A stretch of 46,231 bases of DNA from positions 1-46,231 of the forward strand of contig CAIRZD010000010.1 of assembly GCA_903882965.1 (NCBI GenBank), in the 5' to 3' direction. Origin of the DNA: an uncultured Bacteroidota bacterium (GTDB taxonomy: Bacteria > Bacteroidota > Bacteroidia > Chitinophagales > Chitinophagaceae). Positions 1,430 through 44,714 of the stretch are shown piece after piece. Position 1 is the first letter of the stretch. Every line of letters starts with the position of its first letter. The translations under genes were made by a program, and so were the position numbers. Under the pieces are notes generated by a model. That model worked only from the letters and a program-made list of their open reading frames with translations, made no database searches and was not told where the DNA came from.

Positions 1430-1936
1430 TTATGAGTTTACCCATGCCTGATAGCCGTCTGCCTGACAGATAGTACCCCCGCTTTGCTGTAATACACCTT
1501 TCATACATACCCCGCGCTGAGTTCCTTTATTGCTATCATAGCTCACATGCACCCACCACGCACCCTTATTGTTAGTTTCTATTATCACTTCGTCACAAGG
1601 GATACTAGACGCTTTTATTTTATCGTAAAGTTCCTCCACTGTCAGTCCGGGACTTTCGATGTCTGCCGCCGCCGCCCCACCTTCACAAAGATGCTGACTA
1701 TTCCATTCTCCCCCTACGTGCGTATTAAGGCGATGGCAACGATAACCGCTACTTACTATCAAGGGCATGCCGATAAGCTCTCTAACAGGCTCTAATACGT
1801 TCGTAGCAAGTGCTGTGAGGTTACTTGTAATCTGCTCCGTAGGCTCGAATTGTTCCGTGAATCCATTGGCTGTTGCTGTTGGGCTTGCCAATAATTCAGA
1901 TAGCATAAAATGGGGTGAAAGTTGAATGTCTATCAT
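1430..1936 (-). CDS. Endolysin, peptidase M15-like (zinc carboxypeptidase fold)
   Basis: A 168-residue protein with the M15 zinc-ligand pattern: His82 (NSQH), Asp92 (AADIE) and His130 (WWVHVSY). Family members cut D-Ala-D-Ala type bonds or cross-links in peptidoglycan. There is no signal peptide, so export would need a holin, and two holin-like membrane genes lie directly upstream (1939 and 2343). The motif SSGYRCHRLN at residues 62-71 is also typical of this family in phages. It is the most probable cell-lysis enzyme in this window. Confidence 0.88.
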   Translation of the reverse strand: MIDIQLSPHFMLSELLASPTATANGFTEQFEPTEQITSNLTALATNVLEPVRELIGMPLIVSSGYRCHRLNTHVGGEWNSQHLCEGGAAAADIESPGLTVEELYDKIKASSIPCDEVIIETNNKGAWWVHVSYDSNKGTQRGVCMKGVLQQSGGTICQADGYQAWVNS

Positions 1937-1938
1937 GC

Positions 1939-2346
1939 TTAGGGTTTTTTAAATCCGGGTAAAATATTGCTTAGACGTGATGCCATAAAGTTCAAAAACC
2001 ATTCCGTCAGGAGATAGTTAAAGAACCCCACAGAGAAAGAAAAAAGTATCAAGACTGTGCTATTGGTAAAAGAAGGAGCGAATACACGCATGATTACAAG
2101 CACCACTATGAATGACCCCACAAATCTCGACCTGCGATTTGAATAAACAAACTGCATCGCTGAGGGGTCAGGAGTGGTAGTAGATGGGTCTTTATTCTCG
2201 CCGGTCATTAGTACCTTACCAAGAGCAGAAAGAAGTCCTCCACCAAAGGCAAATATCAGCCCAGCGGCTATGTTAGCCATATCGTAAGTGCCGAGCATGT
2301 TGTGTATGAACTCGCCGCCATTCCAAACTATCTGTAGTAGTGTCAT
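1939..2346 (-). CDS. Multi-membrane-segment protein, putative holin
   Basis: A 135-residue protein with three hydrophobic segments at about residues 22-46, 75-90 and 95-118. Its ATG overlaps the stop of the upstream single-membrane gene (2343-2346) and its stop lies two bases before the endolysin start, giving a tight lysis cassette. The sequence does not match a holin family I can name; the call rests on topology and position. Confidence 0.55.
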   Translation of the reverse strand: MTLLQIVWNGGEFIHNMLGTYDMANIAAGLIFAFGGGLLSALGKVLMTGENKDPSTTTPDPSAMQFVYSNRRSRFVGSFIVVLVIMRVFAPSFTNSTVLILFSFSVGFFNYLLTEWFLNFMASRLSNILPGFKKP

Positions 2347-3061: not shown

Positions 3062-5267
<2,206 letters not shown>

Positions 5268-19938: not shown

Positions 19939-20162
19939 CCTATATGGACTTTAAATTGAAATCTTTTGTGTAAGTCATTTTCAACTCCCATTCGCAACTT
20001 ATTCCCGTTCCTACCTTGCCTACTTACGTATTTGCAAAGCAACTCTTGTGAATCATGGCTTTTGAAATCATAGTTATCATACACGCTTTTTATGGTATGG
20101 TGTCTATCAAGCTCAATTGCTGTCCCGTGTTTAATAACTATGATTTCAAATGACTTAGTCAT
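19935..20162 (-). CDS. Small hypothetical protein in the baseplate region
   Basis: A 75-residue basic protein between baseplate J and the wedge-like gene; it overlaps the latter by four bases (ATGA). It holds HGTAIELDRHHTIKSVYDNYDF and a C-terminal basic stretch. No family was recognised. Confidence 0.5.
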   Translation of the reverse strand: MTKSFEIIVIKHGTAIELDRHHTIKSVYDNYDFKSHDSQELLCKYVSRQGRNGNKLRMGVENDLHKRFQFKVHIG

Positions 20163-25200: not shown

Positions 25201-26484
25201 TCAATAATTATTTATTTGTCGTGGTTTACTTGAAAAACGAATGCGGCTCCCCTGTGTCGGCTGCAATAGCGGTAGATTGGGTGTTATCTCACCCCTGGCG
25301 CATCCTTGTAGCCATCCTAGTGCTGAATATAAAGGATAAAACATTTTGCCCGTAAAATGGGTCTTATCATTGTCAGCACCCATGTAAGCGAAAATAAGTT
25401 TGTCAGGGATGTTCTTTGGCGCAATGTTTTTACTAAGCCTATAAGCGGTTATATCTACCATACGGCTCACTAAGTCCACGTCCCTATTATCTCCTGCCGT
25501 CCAATATAGGGTATTTGTGATAGGTGTTCCTTTGGGAATATAGTAAGGAATACCAATACCCCAACATTTTGAGCCATTGCTCGGATCATCAGGGAATACA
25601 TTGCCAGCTATTACTCCCGTTGTCGTTTCAACTTGCAACTCTTCGGTATGGTCGGGATAGCGAGTGCCAATTATACACGAATACACAAGCCCTTTATAAT
25701 AGACCTGATTGCCTGTGACATAATAGCCATTTGAATAATCAAAGGCGGTCACATTCGGCGGTAGTGCGCCGTAGAAAATAGAATTGCATTGACCCGCTAA
25801 CGTCCAATGCGCGGGATTAAAGGCTTCGGGTGCTACGATTGCAGTCGTGCATACATAGACTGCGCCAATATAGGATTGAGGCCCGACTTGTCTCCACTTC
25901 GCTGGAGTAAATGTTGTATCGCTGTTGGCGATGGCACACATATAAATATTCCCATCGGTATAAAGTATTTGCTGATTGAGTGTGTATGATGTTGATGCTA
26001 CCCACGGAGCATTGTAAATAACCAAAGCATTTAAAGCATACGTGATGCCTGAGCTATATCCTTGTGCCGATAAATATATTCTGTCATTGGCCTGATATGG
26101 GATTGAGCCTGTTGCACCCAAATTAATCCAGTGGGCAGATATGAAAGTGGCATCGTTATTTAGTAAAATGCACTGATAGATATTGCTATCCGTCCATTCC
26201 ACAAACTGTCCAACGGTATAGCTTGTATTGGCTACCCATGCAGCGGCTGTCAATGCTGTACGAGTGGGATAATTCGCCAAAGACACGCCTGATGGATTCC
26301 ATGGTGCGGTAGGGGTAAATTCCTTAGTGGTATCATATTTCTGCCTTAGATGGCTTATGACCTCTGCCTGCGCGGCTTGCTCGGCTAAATGCTGTGATGC
26401 AATATTATTCTGCGTCATTCCAGTAAGGTCGCCGGTTTGGACGGACGGGAGATAATCAGATGAAATTAGATAGCTTGCTGCCAT
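25201..26484 (-). CDS. Neck/head-completion protein (gp36/DUF1320-like) split by carbohydrate-binding-like repeats
   Basis: A 427-residue protein. Residues 1-55 (YLISSDYLPSVQTGDL...AEQAAQAEVISHLRQKYD) and 325-427 (NRDVDLVSRMVDITAYRLSK...YPLYSALGWLQGCARGEITPNLPLL) together read like one gp36/DUF1320-type head-tail adaptor of about 150 residues. Between them lie about 270 residues with CBM5/12-like repeats: 83-123, 161-200, a partial one at 209-231 and a weaker one at 250-275 (TSYTVGQFVEW, TSYTLNQQILY, NIYQC, NIYMC). The insertion would place glycan-binding modules at the head-tail junction. This is inferred from sequence pattern only. Confidence 0.65.
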   Translation of the reverse strand: MAASYLISSDYLPSVQTGDLTGMTQNNIASQHLAEQAAQAEVISHLRQKYDTTKEFTPTAPWNPSGVSLANYPTRTALTAAAWVANTSYTVGQFVEWTDSNIYQCILLNNDATFISAHWINLGATGSIPYQANDRIYLSAQGYSSGITYALNALVIYNAPWVASTSYTLNQQILYTDGNIYMCAIANSDTTFTPAKWRQVGPQSYIGAVYVCTTAIVAPEAFNPAHWTLAGQCNSIFYGALPPNVTAFDYSNGYYVTGNQVYYKGLVYSCIIGTRYPDHTEELQVETTTGVIAGNVFPDDPSNGSKCWGIGIPYYIPKGTPITNTLYWTAGDNRDVDLVSRMVDITAYRLSKNIAPKNIPDKLIFAYMGADNDKTHFTGKMFYPLYSALGWLQGCARGEITPNLPLLQPTQGSRIRFSSKPRQINNY

Positions 26485-26497: not shown

Positions 26498-26556
26498 GTA
26501 AAAGTTGATAAATAAAATCCAGTCTCAACTTTCGCCTAATTTCCTAATAAAAAGTG

Positions 26557-26671
26557 GGAGTCCAATCGGATTCGAACCGATTATCTCACACTACTGCTAA
26601 TCCTTCTTTACAGCCTATTTCTAGTCAAAGCGCCCGAATAATACCCTTAGAGGATTAATTCTATGAACTCC
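26557..26671 (-). tRNA. tRNA-like element, non-canonical (115 nt)
   Basis: An 8-bp acceptor-like stem pairs 26664-26671 with 26557-26564, next to a perfect T arm (ATCGG-TTCGAAT-CCGAT, 26565-26581) and a following CA. Inside, TAATCCT (26651-26657) pairs with AGGATTA (26598-26604). No normal D or anticodon arm can be drawn and the element is 40 nt too long for a tRNA. It may be a degenerate tRNA, a tRNA interrupted by an insert, or the 3' domain of the larger RNA. Confidence 0.42.
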
Positions 26672-26765
26672 ATTTAAAAACCCACCGTTTCTTAATCAGC
26701 AGATATAAGGTATCCCATGTTTCAAAAGTAAACAATTTTTCTTTTTTTCTCGCGTTTTTTTTAGT

Positions 26766-26896
26766 TACCTTTGAGTTTAGGATAATACACCGTCTATAGA
26801 GAGTGTATTTATTTTCAAACTAGCAGCCACAGCAAGTCCTTTCTAAATAACACATCAATGTCCCCTTTTTTCTGAATAAGACTAAGGGGCTTTTTT
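26766..26896 (+). ncRNA. Candidate small plus-strand RNA, antisense to the large RNA
   Basis: A TACCTTTG -7 box (26766-26773) is followed within 11 bases by a 7-bp hairpin (AATACAC 26784-26790 / GTGTATT 26803-26809) whose loop contains the palindrome TCTATAGA. The unit ends in a terminator (CCCCTT 26862-26867 / AAGGGG 26884-26889 and T6). The transcript would be about 115-120 nt with no ORF. The -33 element is only TTTT. Confidence 0.45.
26862..26896 (+). terminator. Intrinsic terminator, plus strand
   Basis: A 6-bp GC-rich stem (CCCCTT / AAGGGG), 16-nt loop, then C and T6. On the minus strand the U-run would precede the stem, so it works only for plus-strand transcripts. Confidence 0.7.
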
Positions 26897-27224
26897 ATGT
26901 CTGCTTCAATTCCTGAGTAGCAGGTCATTTGATGTCGTGTTACCTTTCGGCACTCTCTAATTGGTCGTCACGGTGTCAGACGTTGCCAATCTACTTTTTG
27001 ACATCAACGGAAGTTTCAAAGTTGTTTTTGATTGAAGGTCGTCTAATCCTGTCGGGCAGTTCAACTATACACAACTGCCTTTGTATGTAAGGTCAGTTAT
27101 CGAAATAGCATAAATGCCCACACAGAATGCTTGATAACAAAACACCGTGAGGTGAGCGTTAAATCTGTGTGGGAGTATTTTAAAGTAAAAAAGTCAAACA
27201 TAAATGTTTTATTATCAAGCGTAA

Positions 27225-27255
27225 CAAAAGTATGAATAAAATTTGAATTTACAAA
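27225..27255 (-). promoter_or_regulatory. Consensus Bacteroidota promoter for the large RNA
   Basis: On the minus strand TTTG (27255-27252), 19 bases, then TACTTTTG (27232-27225). The predicted start at about 27219 coincides with the first base of the 15-bp pseudoknot stem. Confidence 0.65.
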
Positions 27256-27350
27256 AGGCATTAATCAATAGCCATAGTCTCGTGGCATTATGATTCTCTA
27301 CGTCTAATATCAGCGATAATGGTGTGGACTGTTTTGACTTCACAGAAAAT

Positions 27351-27377
27351 AAAAAACCCACTGTGTGAGGCAGTGGG
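27351..27377 (-). terminator. Intrinsic terminator downstream of terL
   Basis: A perfect 7-bp stem (CCCACTG 27377-27371 / CAGTGGG 27363-27357) with a 7-nt loop, followed by six U residues. It lies 134 bases after the terL stop and ends the terminase transcript and the small RNA. Confidence 0.82.
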
Positions 27378-27479
27378 CGGGTTTAAAATAGATTCCTTTC
27401 GGTTTCTGCTTCAAACAAACCCCGACTCCATACCTCACATATGGACTTGGGATTTTTATAATTCCTTTGCCTTTCGGCT
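27351..27479 (-). ncRNA. Candidate small RNA with complementary hairpin loops, downstream of terL
   Basis: On the minus strand: GCC-GAAA-GGC hairpin (27478-27469); a long hairpin with outer stem 27449-27455 / 27417-27423 (7 bp, one G-U), internal loop, inner stem TCCATA/TATGGA and loop TGTGAGG (27439-27433); then the terminator hairpin with loop CCTCACA (27370-27364) and U6. The two 7-nt loops are exact reverse complements, so they can kiss within or between molecules. A TATATTTG box at 27484-27491 predicts a start at the first hairpin. Outer stem pairing requires U-G, which on the plus strand would be C-A, so the minus strand is the likely RNA. Confidence 0.6.
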
Positions 27480-27483
27480 GTCA

Positions 27484-27491
27484 CAAATATA
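27484..27491 (-). promoter_or_regulatory. -7 box TATATTTG for the small RNA
   Basis: It matches TAnnTTTG, 20 bases after the terL stop codon, with the GCC-GAAA-GGC hairpin beginning six bases later. No TTTG lies at the expected -33 distance. Confidence 0.42.
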
Positions 27492-27510
27492 CAAACACTT
27501 TTTTAATTTC

Positions 27511-28918
27511 CTAATAACTATTTTTCGATGTAGCGTTTTTGCCGAAAGTGGGCAGCGATTGAACCGCACCGCCGCGCTGATAGGCGGCAAATTCTGCGGC
27601 GAAGGCGGAGCAGAGGATATAATCGGTCAGGTCGACCATGTGGCCGACTTTCTGATAGCGCACCCCGCTTGTATTGGTTTCCATTTCTTTATATTTAGTT
27701 CCATCAGCCGCCTCTTTTGTGGCCACAAAATCATTTATTGTCTTCTTACAATGACTGCCTATAATTATTTTAATTCCACCAATCTCCTTTTCAAGAATCG
27801 TATTTATCCAGTTGCCTCGCATTACTACCGATGGATTGCTATTCAGTACACGCAATGATGGCTTATACTGCCTCAATGCTTCTGTGATCAGTTTATAAAA
27901 ATTCATGCCCTTTTCCAGCTTGGTATCTTCTTTATTTGCGGTAGCATCGCCGTAAATGAACATACCCTTATCATGTGCTGGATATTTGCGTATTATTTCC
28001 CGGCACACGGCAGATATGGTATTGTTTGGAGTTACACCAGCAATTTCATCGACCATGCTTATTGTCTTGCCTTCGATCTGAAATATACCACATGGTAGAT
28101 ATGGGTTAACGTTGTCATCCCATGATATGTGCAATGGCAATAGTGGATTATATTTTGCGTCAGCTACATGGCTATCAAGTTCAAAGCACTTATAAAACTC
28201 CCCGCCTGTTTTTAATTGCAAATCCCAATTGCCTTCTACAAATTGCTCATACTGATAGCGAGGCATCATTTTCAAAGATTCCATGTAAACCGAATCCTCA
28301 AGCACAAATGGATTGTCAAAGATGCGTGACTGAATGTATTTCCACTGAGATGGCAATGTGCCATTTTTAGCAGGCTCGTAGATTAATTCTTTCACCCAGT
28401 TATTTGACGGGTTACACGTAGCCATGATCAAAGGCTGTGGCTTATTCGGTATGATGTGCGCTCCGGCCCGCTCAATGGCTTTGTAAAAACTAGCCTGCTG
28501 TAATTCATTAACTTCCTCTAAAAGAAAACCGTTTACTTCCAATCCTTTCCACCTATCTAACTGCTTATCGTCATCGTAGTTCTCGGAAAAGAAAAGTATC
28601 TGCGACCCGTTGGTGAACGTTACGACCTGTGTATCTTGGTTATACTGCTTGATAAAGTTCTTGGGACAAACCTTAAAGAAAGAGGGGATAGTATTTCGCT
28701 TAAGTGTTGGCAAAGTGTCGCGCACTATTGCCCATTTTGATTTAGGATATTTTTTGCAGAGTAATAGTAATGCCCCTATTCCGGCGAATGTTTTTCCCCC
28801 GCTATCGTATCGCGCCACCGTAGAAGATGGCCGTGAAACGACCACCAAAGACGGCTTCCAAAAACTCTATTTGTTTTGGAAATGGCGCGAATAATATTTC
28901 TGTTTTAGTTTCTGACAT
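27511..28918 (-). pseudogene. terL: Large terminase subunit with a frame break inside Walker A
   Basis: Frame 1 runs from ATG 28918 (MSETKTEILFAPFPKQ...FYGGAIR) to a TAG at 28802-28804. A second frame continues SGGKTFAGIGALLLLCKKYP from 28803 to 27511. Together they form a normal TerL of about 467 residues: P-loop, Walker B region GFLLEEVNEL, and nuclease acidic residues in WDDNVNP, GDATANKED and VDLTDY. Compared with a nine-residue GGAIRxGKT loop, the join has four extra bases in CGATACGATAGCGG. An ATG-started frame at 28848 gives an unrelated N-terminus and is not the true start. Either a mutation, an assembly error or a recoding site explains this. Confidence 0.82.
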
Positions 28919-33932: not shown

Positions 33933-35396
33933 ATGAACAATAAACCTATTACAGTCTTATCCCTTTTTGATGGTGTGAGTTGTGGACAGCTAGCTTTAAA
34001 CCGAGCAGGCATCAAATACGATAAATATTATGCTAGTGAGATAGACAAATATGCCATAAAGATTGCTCAAAAGAACTATCCTGATACTATTCAATTAGGC
34101 TCAGTAATTGACGTTGATGTGAGCAAATTACCCCCTATTGATTGGTTACAAGGGGGTTCGCCTTGTACAAATTTCAGTTTCGCCGGCAAACGCAAAGGCA
34201 TGTCCACCACTGATGAAGTTGAGATATTAACTCTCGACCACTATCTTGAATTGAAATCACAGAACTACGAATTTGAAGGTCAATCGTATCTTTTTTGGGA
34301 GTACATGAGAATCTTAACTGACATACAGAAATACAATCCTGATGTGATATTCTTTTTGGAGAATGTTGAAATGGGTGAGAAGTGGGAGAAAGTATTAAGT
34401 CGAGCCATCGGAGTAAACGGTATTCATATAAATTCCGCTTTGGTTTCCGCTCAATCAAGACCCAGGATATACTGGACGAATTTGGGTTTAGAAAAATCAG
34501 GACTATTCGGAGATTTAACTTCTATTATTACTCAGCCAAAAGATAGGGGTATTTATCTCAAAGACATACTTGAAACAAACGTGGATGAGAAGTATTATTT
34601 GAGTGATAAGATGGTTAGTTATCTGAATAGTCGAAAGAAGAATTATAATGGAGGAAAGATAAATTACAAAACAGGCGTTGATAAGGCGAGCTGTATTAAC
34701 GCCTGTTCAGGATCCCTGGATATATCAGACAATATTATTGTGGACAAGAACAGAAAGGCTTCATGTTTTACTGCTGGTGCTCATTCCGGAGGATTGCATA
34801 GTGAAATGGATACCATTGTAGAGGGGCAAAGCACGATGATAGAAGTAACCTGTGCAGCATCAAGAGGGCGAAACCCCGATAATCCCAAAAGCCGTAAAAC
34901 TGGATTAGAAACAGAGCAACACCTTGAGGAGCGTTTCGATGGTAAGACAAATTGTCTTACCAGTGTGGCTAAAGATAATTATGTGGTAGAGAAAGCCAGT
35001 GAACCTGTATTGATGCTTACCTTAAACAAATCCGCAGCTTTTCATCATGAAAAGCTGGATAACAAATCTTATTCATTAGCTGCCCGAAGTGATTTAGCGA
35101 TAGTTGAGCCAATAACCGTCCACAATATGATGCCACGAAGTAGCAAAACAGGGAAAGGGGGAACTGGGCATCTGTCCAGGACAGATGGGAAAACTTACAC
35201 ATTAGCTTGCTCAGATATAAACCGAGTTGAATACAAACAGCGAATAAGGAGATTGACCGAGGTAGAGTGCGAGAGACTTCAAACCTTGCCAGACTTTTAC
35301 ACAGAAGGTATTTCTTCAACTCAGCGTTACCGAGCTTTAGGCAACGGCTGGAACGTGGACACTATCGTTTATCTATTCGGATATTATAAGGGTTAA
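33933..35396 (+). CDS. DNA cytosine-5 methyltransferase
   Basis: A 487-residue enzyme that transfers methyl from S-adenosylmethionine to C5 of cytosine. Motif I LFDGVSCG at 11-18, catalytic Cys78 in GGSPC, ENV at 143-145, QSRPRIYW at 174-181, and C-terminal motifs IX/X (RRLTEVECERLQTLPDFYT...YRALGNGWNVDTIVY). The segment between motifs VIII and IX is over 200 residues, larger than usual, and holds internal repeats of a K-x-xCLT/SLA type. No restriction enzyme is beside it, so it probably protects phage DNA. Its stop overlaps the convergent DUF1064 gene. Confidence 0.92.
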   Translation: MNNKPITVLSLFDGVSCGQLALNRAGIKYDKYYASEIDKYAIKIAQKNYPDTIQLGSVIDVDVSKLPPIDWLQGGSPCTNFSFAGKRKGMSTTDEVEILTLDHYLELKSQNYEFEGQSYLFWEYMRILTDIQKYNPDVIFFLENVEMGEKWEKVLSRAIGVNGIHINSALVSAQSRPRIYWTNLGLEKSGLFGDLTSIITQPKDRGIYLKDILETNVDEKYYLSDKMVSYLNSRKKNYNGGKINYKTGVDKASCINACSGSLDISDNIIVDKNRKASCFTAGAHSGGLHSEMDTIVEGQSTMIEVTCAASRGRNPDNPKSRKTGLETEQHLEERFDGKTNCLTSVAKDNYVVEKASEPVLMLTLNKSAAFHHEKLDNKSYSLAARSDLAIVEPITVHNMMPRSSKTGKGGTGHLSRTDGKTYTLACSDINRVEYKQRIRRLTEVECERLQTLPDFYTEGISSTQRYRALGNGWNVDTIVYLFGYYKG

Positions 35397-35797
35397 CTCT
35401 CTAATATATCAATACCATAAACAGCCTTAACTAATTTCTTCTTTAGCCTATATATGGGTGTTTTCATTCCTTTTACATCCTCCAAAATCTTTACCCCATT
35501 TCTGATATACTCAAAATCACCTTTGTATTTACATACTAAGACACCATTAATTTCTATTGGATAGACAGGTTGTAGCTTTAAACTTGATATTGCACCAGCA
35601 AAGGATTCAATTTTCAAATCCTGATACCTTTTAGCTTCTTTGGCAGAATCGAATTTTATTCCTTCTACTTCTGTCCTAGTGTTGCCGTATTTGCTTCGTT
35701 TTGGCTTATATGTGGCCTTATTTTCCTTCTTGGTTACCCTTAATGCTTTGCCACCCTTTATCTCGTATCCTAGAGCCTTTAAATCAGCGGTGGTCAT
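35393..35797 (-). CDS. DUF1064 protein (restriction-endonuclease-like fold)
   Basis: A 134-residue protein matching the DUF1064 pattern: KYGNTRTEVEGIKFDSAKEAKRYQDLK (about 37-63), LKLQPVYPIEING, and FEYIRNGVKILEDVKGMKTPIYRLKKKLVKAVYGI. Conserved Glu, Asp and Lys residues suggest a PD-(D/E)XK-type nuclease, often proposed as a phage resolvase or replication nuclease. It is the last gene of the leftward replication operon. Confidence 0.85.
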   Translation of the reverse strand: MTTADLKALGYEIKGGKALRVTKKENKATYKPKRSKYGNTRTEVEGIKFDSAKEAKRYQDLKIESFAGAISSLKLQPVYPIEINGVLVCKYKGDFEYIRNGVKILEDVKGMKTPIYRLKKKLVKAVYGIDILES

Positions 35798-44623: not shown

Positions 44624-44697
44624 GGGGAGGTAGCGTAAATTGGATTACCGCCAAGAGTAATGTCAAGGCAATGCTGGTTCGAGTCCAGCCCTCTCCA
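44624..44697 (+). tRNA. tRNA-like element with atypical anticodon arm
   Basis: Acceptor GGGGAGG (44624-44630) / CCTCTCC (44690-44696) with one G-U, D-arm-like GCG/CGC with a GG-containing loop, and a perfect T arm GCTGG-TTCGAGT-CCAGC. Length fits a tRNA (about 74 nt), but no anticodon stem forms and CCA is not encoded. An alternative 8-bp pairing, GGCGGTAA (44607-44614) with TTACCGCC (44645-44652), extends the structure upstream and resembles the layout of the element at 26557-26671. Confidence 0.5.
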
Positions 44698-44714
44698 CAA
44701 CTGAGTTCTGTTTG

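Follow-up and report, generated by a model that had tools for sequence, protein, structure and literature searches.

This study asked what is encoded at the boundary between the DNA-packaging and head genes of a phage contig, where a long intergenic stretch separates the large terminase gene (TerL) from its downstream neighbor. The window, i.e., the whole stretch of DNA that was analyzed, is one complete contig (46,231 bp) of an assembly with 508 contigs. Its minus strand carries TerS and TerL, followed in order by genes for a 427-aa protein, for the portal and for a minor head protein; TerL stops at 27511 and the gene for the 427-aa protein starts at 26484, with the stretch of interest in between. 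No ORF of at least 60 aa overlaps 26551-27220, and the longest small ORF in the region has 54 aa, in agreement with an earlier sequence-only reading that had found no ORF to explain the region and had proposed a densely folded RNA instead. To our knowledge, only a few large, intricately folded phage RNAs have been described, and their role is an open question.

The putative RNA gene and its predicted domains

The features that define the putative RNA gene, including the part that it has in common with a homolog (L162), are as follows.

26551-27220, minus strand: structured RNA of ~670 nt (folding; both ends placed by the promoter and the U5)
27225-27255, minus strand: Bacteroidetes-type promoter, TTTG-N19-TACTTTTG (full-motif match)
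27356-27378, minus strand: hairpin resembling an intrinsic terminator, behind TerL and ahead of the RNA promoter (terminator scan)
27117-27220, minus strand: 5' pseudoknot of helices P1 and P2 (stem scans; suggestive counterpart in L162)
26785-27090, minus strand: core common to the window and L162 at 76-77% identity, the central ~300 nt (sequence searches)
26720-26770, minus strand: A-rich linker from the core to the 3' domain, limits approximate (sequence)
26549-26720, minus strand: 3' domain, with a T-arm hairpin (26581-26565) and U5 (26553-26549)

The full minus-strand promoter that had been read upstream of the RNA is present at 27255-27225 and belongs to a motif enriched in the window, where nine full TTTG-N19-TACTTTTG matches were found vs. 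1.29 expected, a count reached by none of 100 shuffles. The terminator scan called the hairpin behind TerL and no terminator at the 3' end of the RNA, where the minus strand reads U5 (26553-26549). Combined, the RNA's own promoter and the separate terminator of TerL suggest, as the likeliest reading, that the RNA is expressed as its own unit. We infer its transcription and both of its ends; the complete fold and an action in trans are likewise presumed. Additionally, the stretch from the TerL stop to the terminator (27321-27503, minus strand) is well folded (z -3.18 for the 160-nt window 27321-27480) and carries CCGAAAGG motifs. A second small RNA may lie here, or an element of the 3' UTR.

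Folding of 27220-26551 on the minus strand gave -172.3 kcal/mol and a z of -3.73, with none of 100 dinucleotide shuffles as good, whereas the plus strand of the same 670-nt stretch gave a z of -1.40, with 9 of 100 shuffles as good. The excess over shuffles (-27 kcal/mol) was above that of all 39 other 670-nt minus-strand segments (the next being -20.6); by z, calculated with 8 shuffles each, one of the 39 comparison segments (start 21851) reached -4.0. The 160-nt windows inside the RNA are unexceptional, the best minus-strand z being -2.96, and in the 3' part z is near or above zero in places. The strand-specific folding (z -3.73 vs. -1.40), together with a homolog that has two-sided changes in its helices, supports the earlier proposal of a structured RNA on the minus strand. 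Elsewhere in the window, a long near-perfect inverted repeat at 20062-20150 has a very low z on both strands and is the longest stem in the minus-strand scan (19 bp with G-U).

In the 5' domain, both helices of the earlier reading are found, and they interlock as a pseudoknot. The 15-bp P1 pairs 27220-27206 with 27143-27129; the 10-bp P2, which is Watson-Crick throughout, pairs 27173-27164 with 27126-27117. When G-U pairs are counted, only one of the 200 minus-strand stems of at least 10 bp that span at most 130 nt is longer than P1. Interlocked stem pairs as such (at least 10 bp) are no commoner than random, with 24 on the minus strand vs. 12-35 in six random versions.

At the opposite end, the reading of a tRNA-like structure followed by U5 fared unevenly: the T-arm hairpin and the U5 are present, whereas ARAGORN and Rfam find no tRNA or tmRNA at the RNA 3' end. 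An acceptor-like pairing is possible in the 3' domain (26671-26664 with 26564-26557); this pairing has a thermodynamically preferred alternative, and CCA is absent. The other scanned loci have 12 strict T-arm motifs, six of them inside called tRNA or tmRNA genes, so that finding one within a 1-kb region is unlikely yet not striking. The 22-nt T-arm stretch has no near copy (at most 3 mismatches) elsewhere in its own genome. The sequence makes a T-arm hairpin at the 3' end credible and a wider tRNA-like structure a candidate only, the original proposal being only partly borne out. Other tRNA-like elements were observed beside the locus under study: T-arm-like sequence was seen by eye on the opposite strand in the post-TerL gap of one TerL relative (67%; L003, ~1572-1752), a permuted tmRNA is called by ARAGORN on a related phage contig (L070, 2455-2821), and the plus strand of the window holds at 44624-44698 a tRNA-like gene with a good acceptor and T arm, to which ARAGORN assigns no identity and in which a regular anticodon arm is absent by eye.

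The conserved core in a second phage

A seed scan of IMG/VR with 15 junction bases (CTGACACCGTGACGA) returned at least 69 stretches, among them one true relative, L162 (IMGVR_UViG_3300002307_000047, 71,706 bp), which matches at an nhmmer E of 2.4e-37 with 184 bits and 76% identity. The compared cores differ by 66 substitutions in 290 ungapped columns and have identical runs of 26, 16 and 14 nt. Decayed coding sequence, which the earlier reading had named as a finding that would count against its RNA if seen at this place in related phages, is not supported: stop codons fall in all six frames of both cores, and the indels between them are mostly not multiples of three. Folded alone, the L162 core has a z of -3.05 (0 of 100 shuffles as good) and the window core a z of -2.58 (1 of 100).

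The TerL of the L162 phage is of a different family (phrog_6681 vs. phrog_979 in the window), and a comparison over 38 kb found just two ORFs that resemble ones of the window. Both RNA-carrying phages have a DUF1064 / phrog_190 gene (49.6% amino-acid identity), and a cytosine methylase is likewise common to them (46-47% identity).

33933-35797 in the window; 1038-1469 and 17908-18951 in L308: positions of the shared genes (protein comparison)

The RNA of L162 sits between an 87-aa ORF, with which its 5' part would overlap, and a YopX-like gene; the successive ORFs around it share its strand, and a full promoter was not identified there by eye. Overall sequence similarity between the 5' domain and the L162 flank is absent (148 of 300 shuffles score equally), and no counterpart of the 3' domain was seen in L162 (253 of 300 shuffles score equally). 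An identical UCUGUGUG stands at the corresponding place in the L162 flank and takes part there in an 11-bp stem that interlocks with another of 7 bp, a result that 17 of 600 octamer-keeping shuffles equal. These P1- and P2-like stems lie at 1874-2013 (minus strand) inside the 87-aa ORF upstream of the core, a doubtful ORF with no match in phages and a PHROGs E of 0.16. The sequence is thereby suggestive of a counterpart of the 5' pseudoknot in L162.

Within the core, the following elements pair in both sequences or recur between them.

27055-27079, minus strand: 7-bp hairpin GGCAGUU/AACUGCC, identical in L162 (alignment)
26929-27014, minus strand: junction domain with UUGAUGU/ACAUCAA, GAUUGG/CCAAUU, CGUC/GACG and a CCGAAAGG loop (pairing in both sequences)
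26798-26958, minus strand: long-range helix of AGAGAGUG (26958-26951) with CACUCUCU (26805-26798), one two-sided change
26788-26975, minus strand: loop-strand pseudoknot of CACCGU (26975-26970) with ACGGUG (26793-26788), unchanged in both
26862-26889, minus strand: hairpin CCCCUU/AAGGGG with a conserved loop, resembling terminator-like hairpins elsewhere

The 7-bp hairpin (27079-27055) and the junction closed by 8 bp (27007-27000 with 26936-26929) with its GAAA loop had both been predicted from the window alone, and both are present. Inside the junction domain, ACUU/AAGU interlocks with UUGAUGU/ACAUCAA. In L162, ACUU/AAGU becomes ACUG/CAGU, UUGAUGU/ACAUCAA becomes UGGAUGU/AUAUCCA, GAUUGG/CCAAUU becomes GCGUGG/CCGCGU, and the two strands of the long-range helix, AGAGAGUG and CACUCUCU (~145 nt apart), become AGAGGGUG and CACCCUCU; CCCCUU/AAGGGG is found in a shorter form with U-A changed to C-G.

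All 51 of the 51 chosen core pairs, which were partly chosen with both sequences in view, are paired in both sequences, six of them with both sides changed, a number that 7 of 500 shuffles reach in a control that is weak at n=2. When the core structure is slid by 1-3 columns, at most 47% of cells pair and at most one two-sided change is found. Set against column permutation, a control free of structure choice, the alignment has four stacks that reach 6 bp and include a two-sided change vs. a mean of 1.24 (12 of 300 shuffles), one of the four stacks being absent from the 51-pair structure, and five two-sided changes vs. a mean of 1.33 (5 of 300 shuffles); counts of stacks of at least 7 bp are not unusual (54 of 300 shuffles). 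With the column-shuffling control at ~0.02-0.04, the support for the core structure is therefore real, but based on two sequences, and the covariation is thin because the family has two members only. The complete minimum free energy (MFE) fold calculated from the window only retains 10 of the 27 changed core pairs, decoys being equally good (0.38); therefore, much of this MFE fold is probably wrong in detail.

Distribution of the RNA and its probable insertion behind TerL

A search of 4,227 Rfam families returned only chance matches for the window region and L162, and the models for ROOL, GOLLD and tmRNA had no match in either at E <= 10 with permissive filters, nor had any intron model at E <= 10. 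Membership in ROOL, GOLLD or tmRNA, which the sequence-only reading had raised on grounds of resemblance, is therefore not supported by these models. Against phage records, blastn gave short chance matches that each cover at most 8% of the query (three for the whole region, 22 for the L162 core and seven for the window core), and against plasmids one short match only. The genomes of 98 relatives (own excluded) gave no BLAST match at E <= 0.001. At E <= 1, 353 of 396 order genomes had matches, short among the matches listed; the seven best non-own order loci (L129-L135) were rejected as short local matches only, and the weak partial match of one of them to a covariance model (CM) (L133, E 0.24) is a terminator-like hairpin.

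Among the further patterns sought in IMG/VR, the exact pattern GTGCCGAAAGGTAACAC gave 0 stretches and the P2 arms gave one, which is unrelated (L090). The pattern CGCTCACCTCACGGTG returned 15 stretches, several of them terminator-like hairpins by eye and none matched by nhmmer; GACTAGAAATAGGCTG returned five, of which three matched at an nhmmer E of 0.4-0.9 without a CM match; and TGCTGTGGCTGCTAGT returned at least 69, none accepted. One stretch of the TGCTGTGGCTGCTAGT scan (L283) scored 42.5 vs. a median of 18 but falls within long ORFs, and the CM does not match it.

A covariance model, R1, was built from the two sequences (186 columns). On 395 phylum genomes it recovered the own copy, the single one in that genome, and five weak matches (E 2.7e-4 to 0.007), which were rejected: one keeps a similar hairpin without the junction (L302), and the others are poor or partial. 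In draws of class (395), family (304) and order (318) genomes, which overlap and were searched with stricter filters, only the own copy was found at E <= 5e-4. Therefore, either the searched collections contain few members of the family, or its members have diverged beyond the reach of a model built from two sequences. Among 50 complete IMG/VR records, 47 from the 80 TerL relatives described below and 3 others, R1 matched none, a positive-control-free result that shows little. The literature titles and abstracts listed gave no paper on this RNA; PMC8040213 reports thousands of candidate RNAs in supplements, and these supplement candidates are outside the scope of titles and abstracts.

A direct repeat brackets the RNA gene and the 3' end region of TerL; the sequence-only reading had mentioned neither this repeat nor the insertion-like look of the region.

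26537-26550, unstranded: left and probably duplicated copy of TAATTTCCTAATAA, a perfect direct repeat of 14 bp (repeat scan)
27504-27517, unstranded: right copy, overlapping the TerL stop codon (repeat scan)
26551-27503, minus strand: 953-bp ORF-free insert, holding the TerL 3' end region with the terminator and the RNA gene (presumed insertion)

Because the right copy lies on the TerL stop, with similar codons in relatives, the left copy is probably the extra one. No further copy of TAATTTCCTAATAA (at most one mismatch) was found in the window. Eight direct-repeat pairs reach 14 bp with their copies within 1500 bp, vs. 0.65 expected at random; six are in one repeat-rich gene, one is the TAATTTCCTAATAA pair and one is elsewhere. 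As a separate observation, a tail-fibre-like gene (3147-5267) has short tandem repeats at window 4045-4850.

TerL relatives were found in 102 IMG/VR stretches, of which the best 80 were kept (55-70% identity). The next same-strand ORF of at least 90 aa after TerL was found in 75 of these 80, at a gap of at most 300 nt in 68 of the 75, one of the short gaps (L073) being a negative artifact; in the remaining seven the apparent gap is in every case occupied by same-strand ORFs of at least 30 aa, and in L046 the next gene follows immediately. The RNA was not detected in the 80 TerL loci, with nothing below an E of 0.034 by BLAST and nothing at E <= 10 by nhmmer. On 94 fetched loci, R1 gave only one partial match at a locus end (L065, one of the 80 TerL loci, E 0.064), which was not counted; the positive control of this search, L162, was recovered at 221 bits. 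The six TerL loci found in GTDB genomes had no nhmmer or CM match. The bracketing 14-bp repeat and the absence of the RNA near TerL in the 80 relatives point to an inserted accessory RNA gene. The flanks of L162 have no comparable repeat, only an imperfect 11-nt pair.

Interpretation and comparison with known systems

Overall, we consider it probable that the locus encodes a large structured noncoding RNA of a new family whose members act in trans and are carried as an accessory gene by Bacteroidota-type phages. A self-contained cassette with its own promoter would have been inserted between TerL and the next structural gene. From 5' to 3', its ~670-nt RNA would comprise a pseudoknot, a conserved ~300-nt core held together by the long-range helix and pseudoknots, an A-rich linker, and a 3' domain that terminates in the T-arm hairpin. 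The likeliest role of such an RNA in trans would be a structural or scaffolding one, which has also been proposed for ROOL and GOLLD; taken by itself, this role is suggested tentatively and by analogy. More speculative still is the broader proposition that the RNA represents a further ornate phage RNA class unrelated to ROOL and GOLLD, in which a multimerising ~300-nt pseudoknotted core is connected by an A-rich linker with a 3' domain that can be exchanged (here a T-arm or a tRNA mimic), and in which a protein-free cassette spreads between Bacteroidota phages, leaving a 14-bp target duplication.

The gene arrangement could also be read as that of a cis-acting leader of the downstream gene (an attenuator, a riboswitch-like or a translational control element), since the L162 core lies directly upstream of the same-strand YopX-like gene without a clear promoter of its own and the window RNA is upstream of a same-strand gene as well. 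This reading is nevertheless improbable: the genes downstream of the two RNAs bear no relation to each other, one encoding a 427-aa phage protein and the other YopX, the window RNA has a full promoter and a terminal U5, a -7-like TATCTTTG can be seen by eye before the next window gene, and 670 nt is long for a leader. The RNA of a self-moving mobile element (ribozyme, intron-like or transposon guide RNA), with a structure that serves mobility, would fit the 953-bp insert bracketed by a 14-bp direct repeat, its absence from the TerL relatives and the recurrence of the core in an unrelated phage, but has the smaller chance of the two, given that no Rfam intron, ribozyme or other family matches, that the insert is protein-free and present as one copy in its own genome, and that L162 has no such flanking repeat (an imperfect 11-nt pair only).

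It is very unlikely that ROOL, GOLLD, tmRNA or another known family is present in a form too divergent for the models used: nothing was found at E <= 10 with permissive filters in either sequence, and ARAGORN found no tmRNA, even though the pseudoknots, the T-arm hairpin, a phage location and a size near the 659 nt of ROOL env-120 (the last two as given in PMC12286853) would suit such a relative. The strand-specific folding, the two-sided changes, the runs of 26, 16 and 14 nt that recur identically in an unrelated phage and the stops in every core frame leave hardly any credence for inverted repeats and decayed DNA remnants with no functional RNA, despite interlocked stems being common by chance, the 160-nt windows not being extreme and the MFE fold as a whole not being preserved.

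An independent family whose compact conserved core is common to two unrelated phages would suggest repeated recruitment of such RNAs by phages, and structural and functional work could start from a smaller object. In addition, an RNA gene that encodes no protein and lies inside a direct repeat would let one ask how such RNAs move between phages.

ROOL is an RNA nanocage of the octameric type. In PMC12286853, ROOL is described as phage-encoded, complex with pseudoknots and of unknown function (env-120, 659 nt), and GOLLD as phage-encoded and large, with a conserved and a less conserved region and sometimes a tRNA in the linker. From that description, the likeness of the present RNA to ROOL is one of kind only (phage-encoded, similar in length, pseudoknotted), and that to GOLLD is in being phage-encoded and large. 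Unlike ROOL, the RNA leaves the Rfam model unmatched and has a conserved part of only ~300 nt; ROOL is often near tRNA islands, whereas the window's only tRNA call is 17 kb away and L162 has none. The GOLLD model is unmatched as well, and here the T-arm domain is 3'-terminal after an A-rich linker and is not a recognizable tRNA; in GOLLD the 3' region is universally conserved and the 5' region variable. In the present RNA (n=2) the middle is conserved and no counterpart of the 3' part was seen.

The T-arm hairpin and the possible acceptor-like pairing at the 3' end recall tmRNA, which joins a tRNA-like domain to a tag reading frame, and tRNA, which folds as a cloverleaf; the RNA differs from both in the negative ARAGORN and Rfam results and in having no CCA; the Rfam core models of group I and group II introns were unmatched at E <= 10. 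Phage morons are autonomously transcribed inserted genes, and the present gene resembles them in its own promoter, in the separate terminator upstream and in its absence from relatives at the same place. It differs from a moron in that an RNA and no protein is encoded and in that a 14-bp direct repeat brackets the insert.
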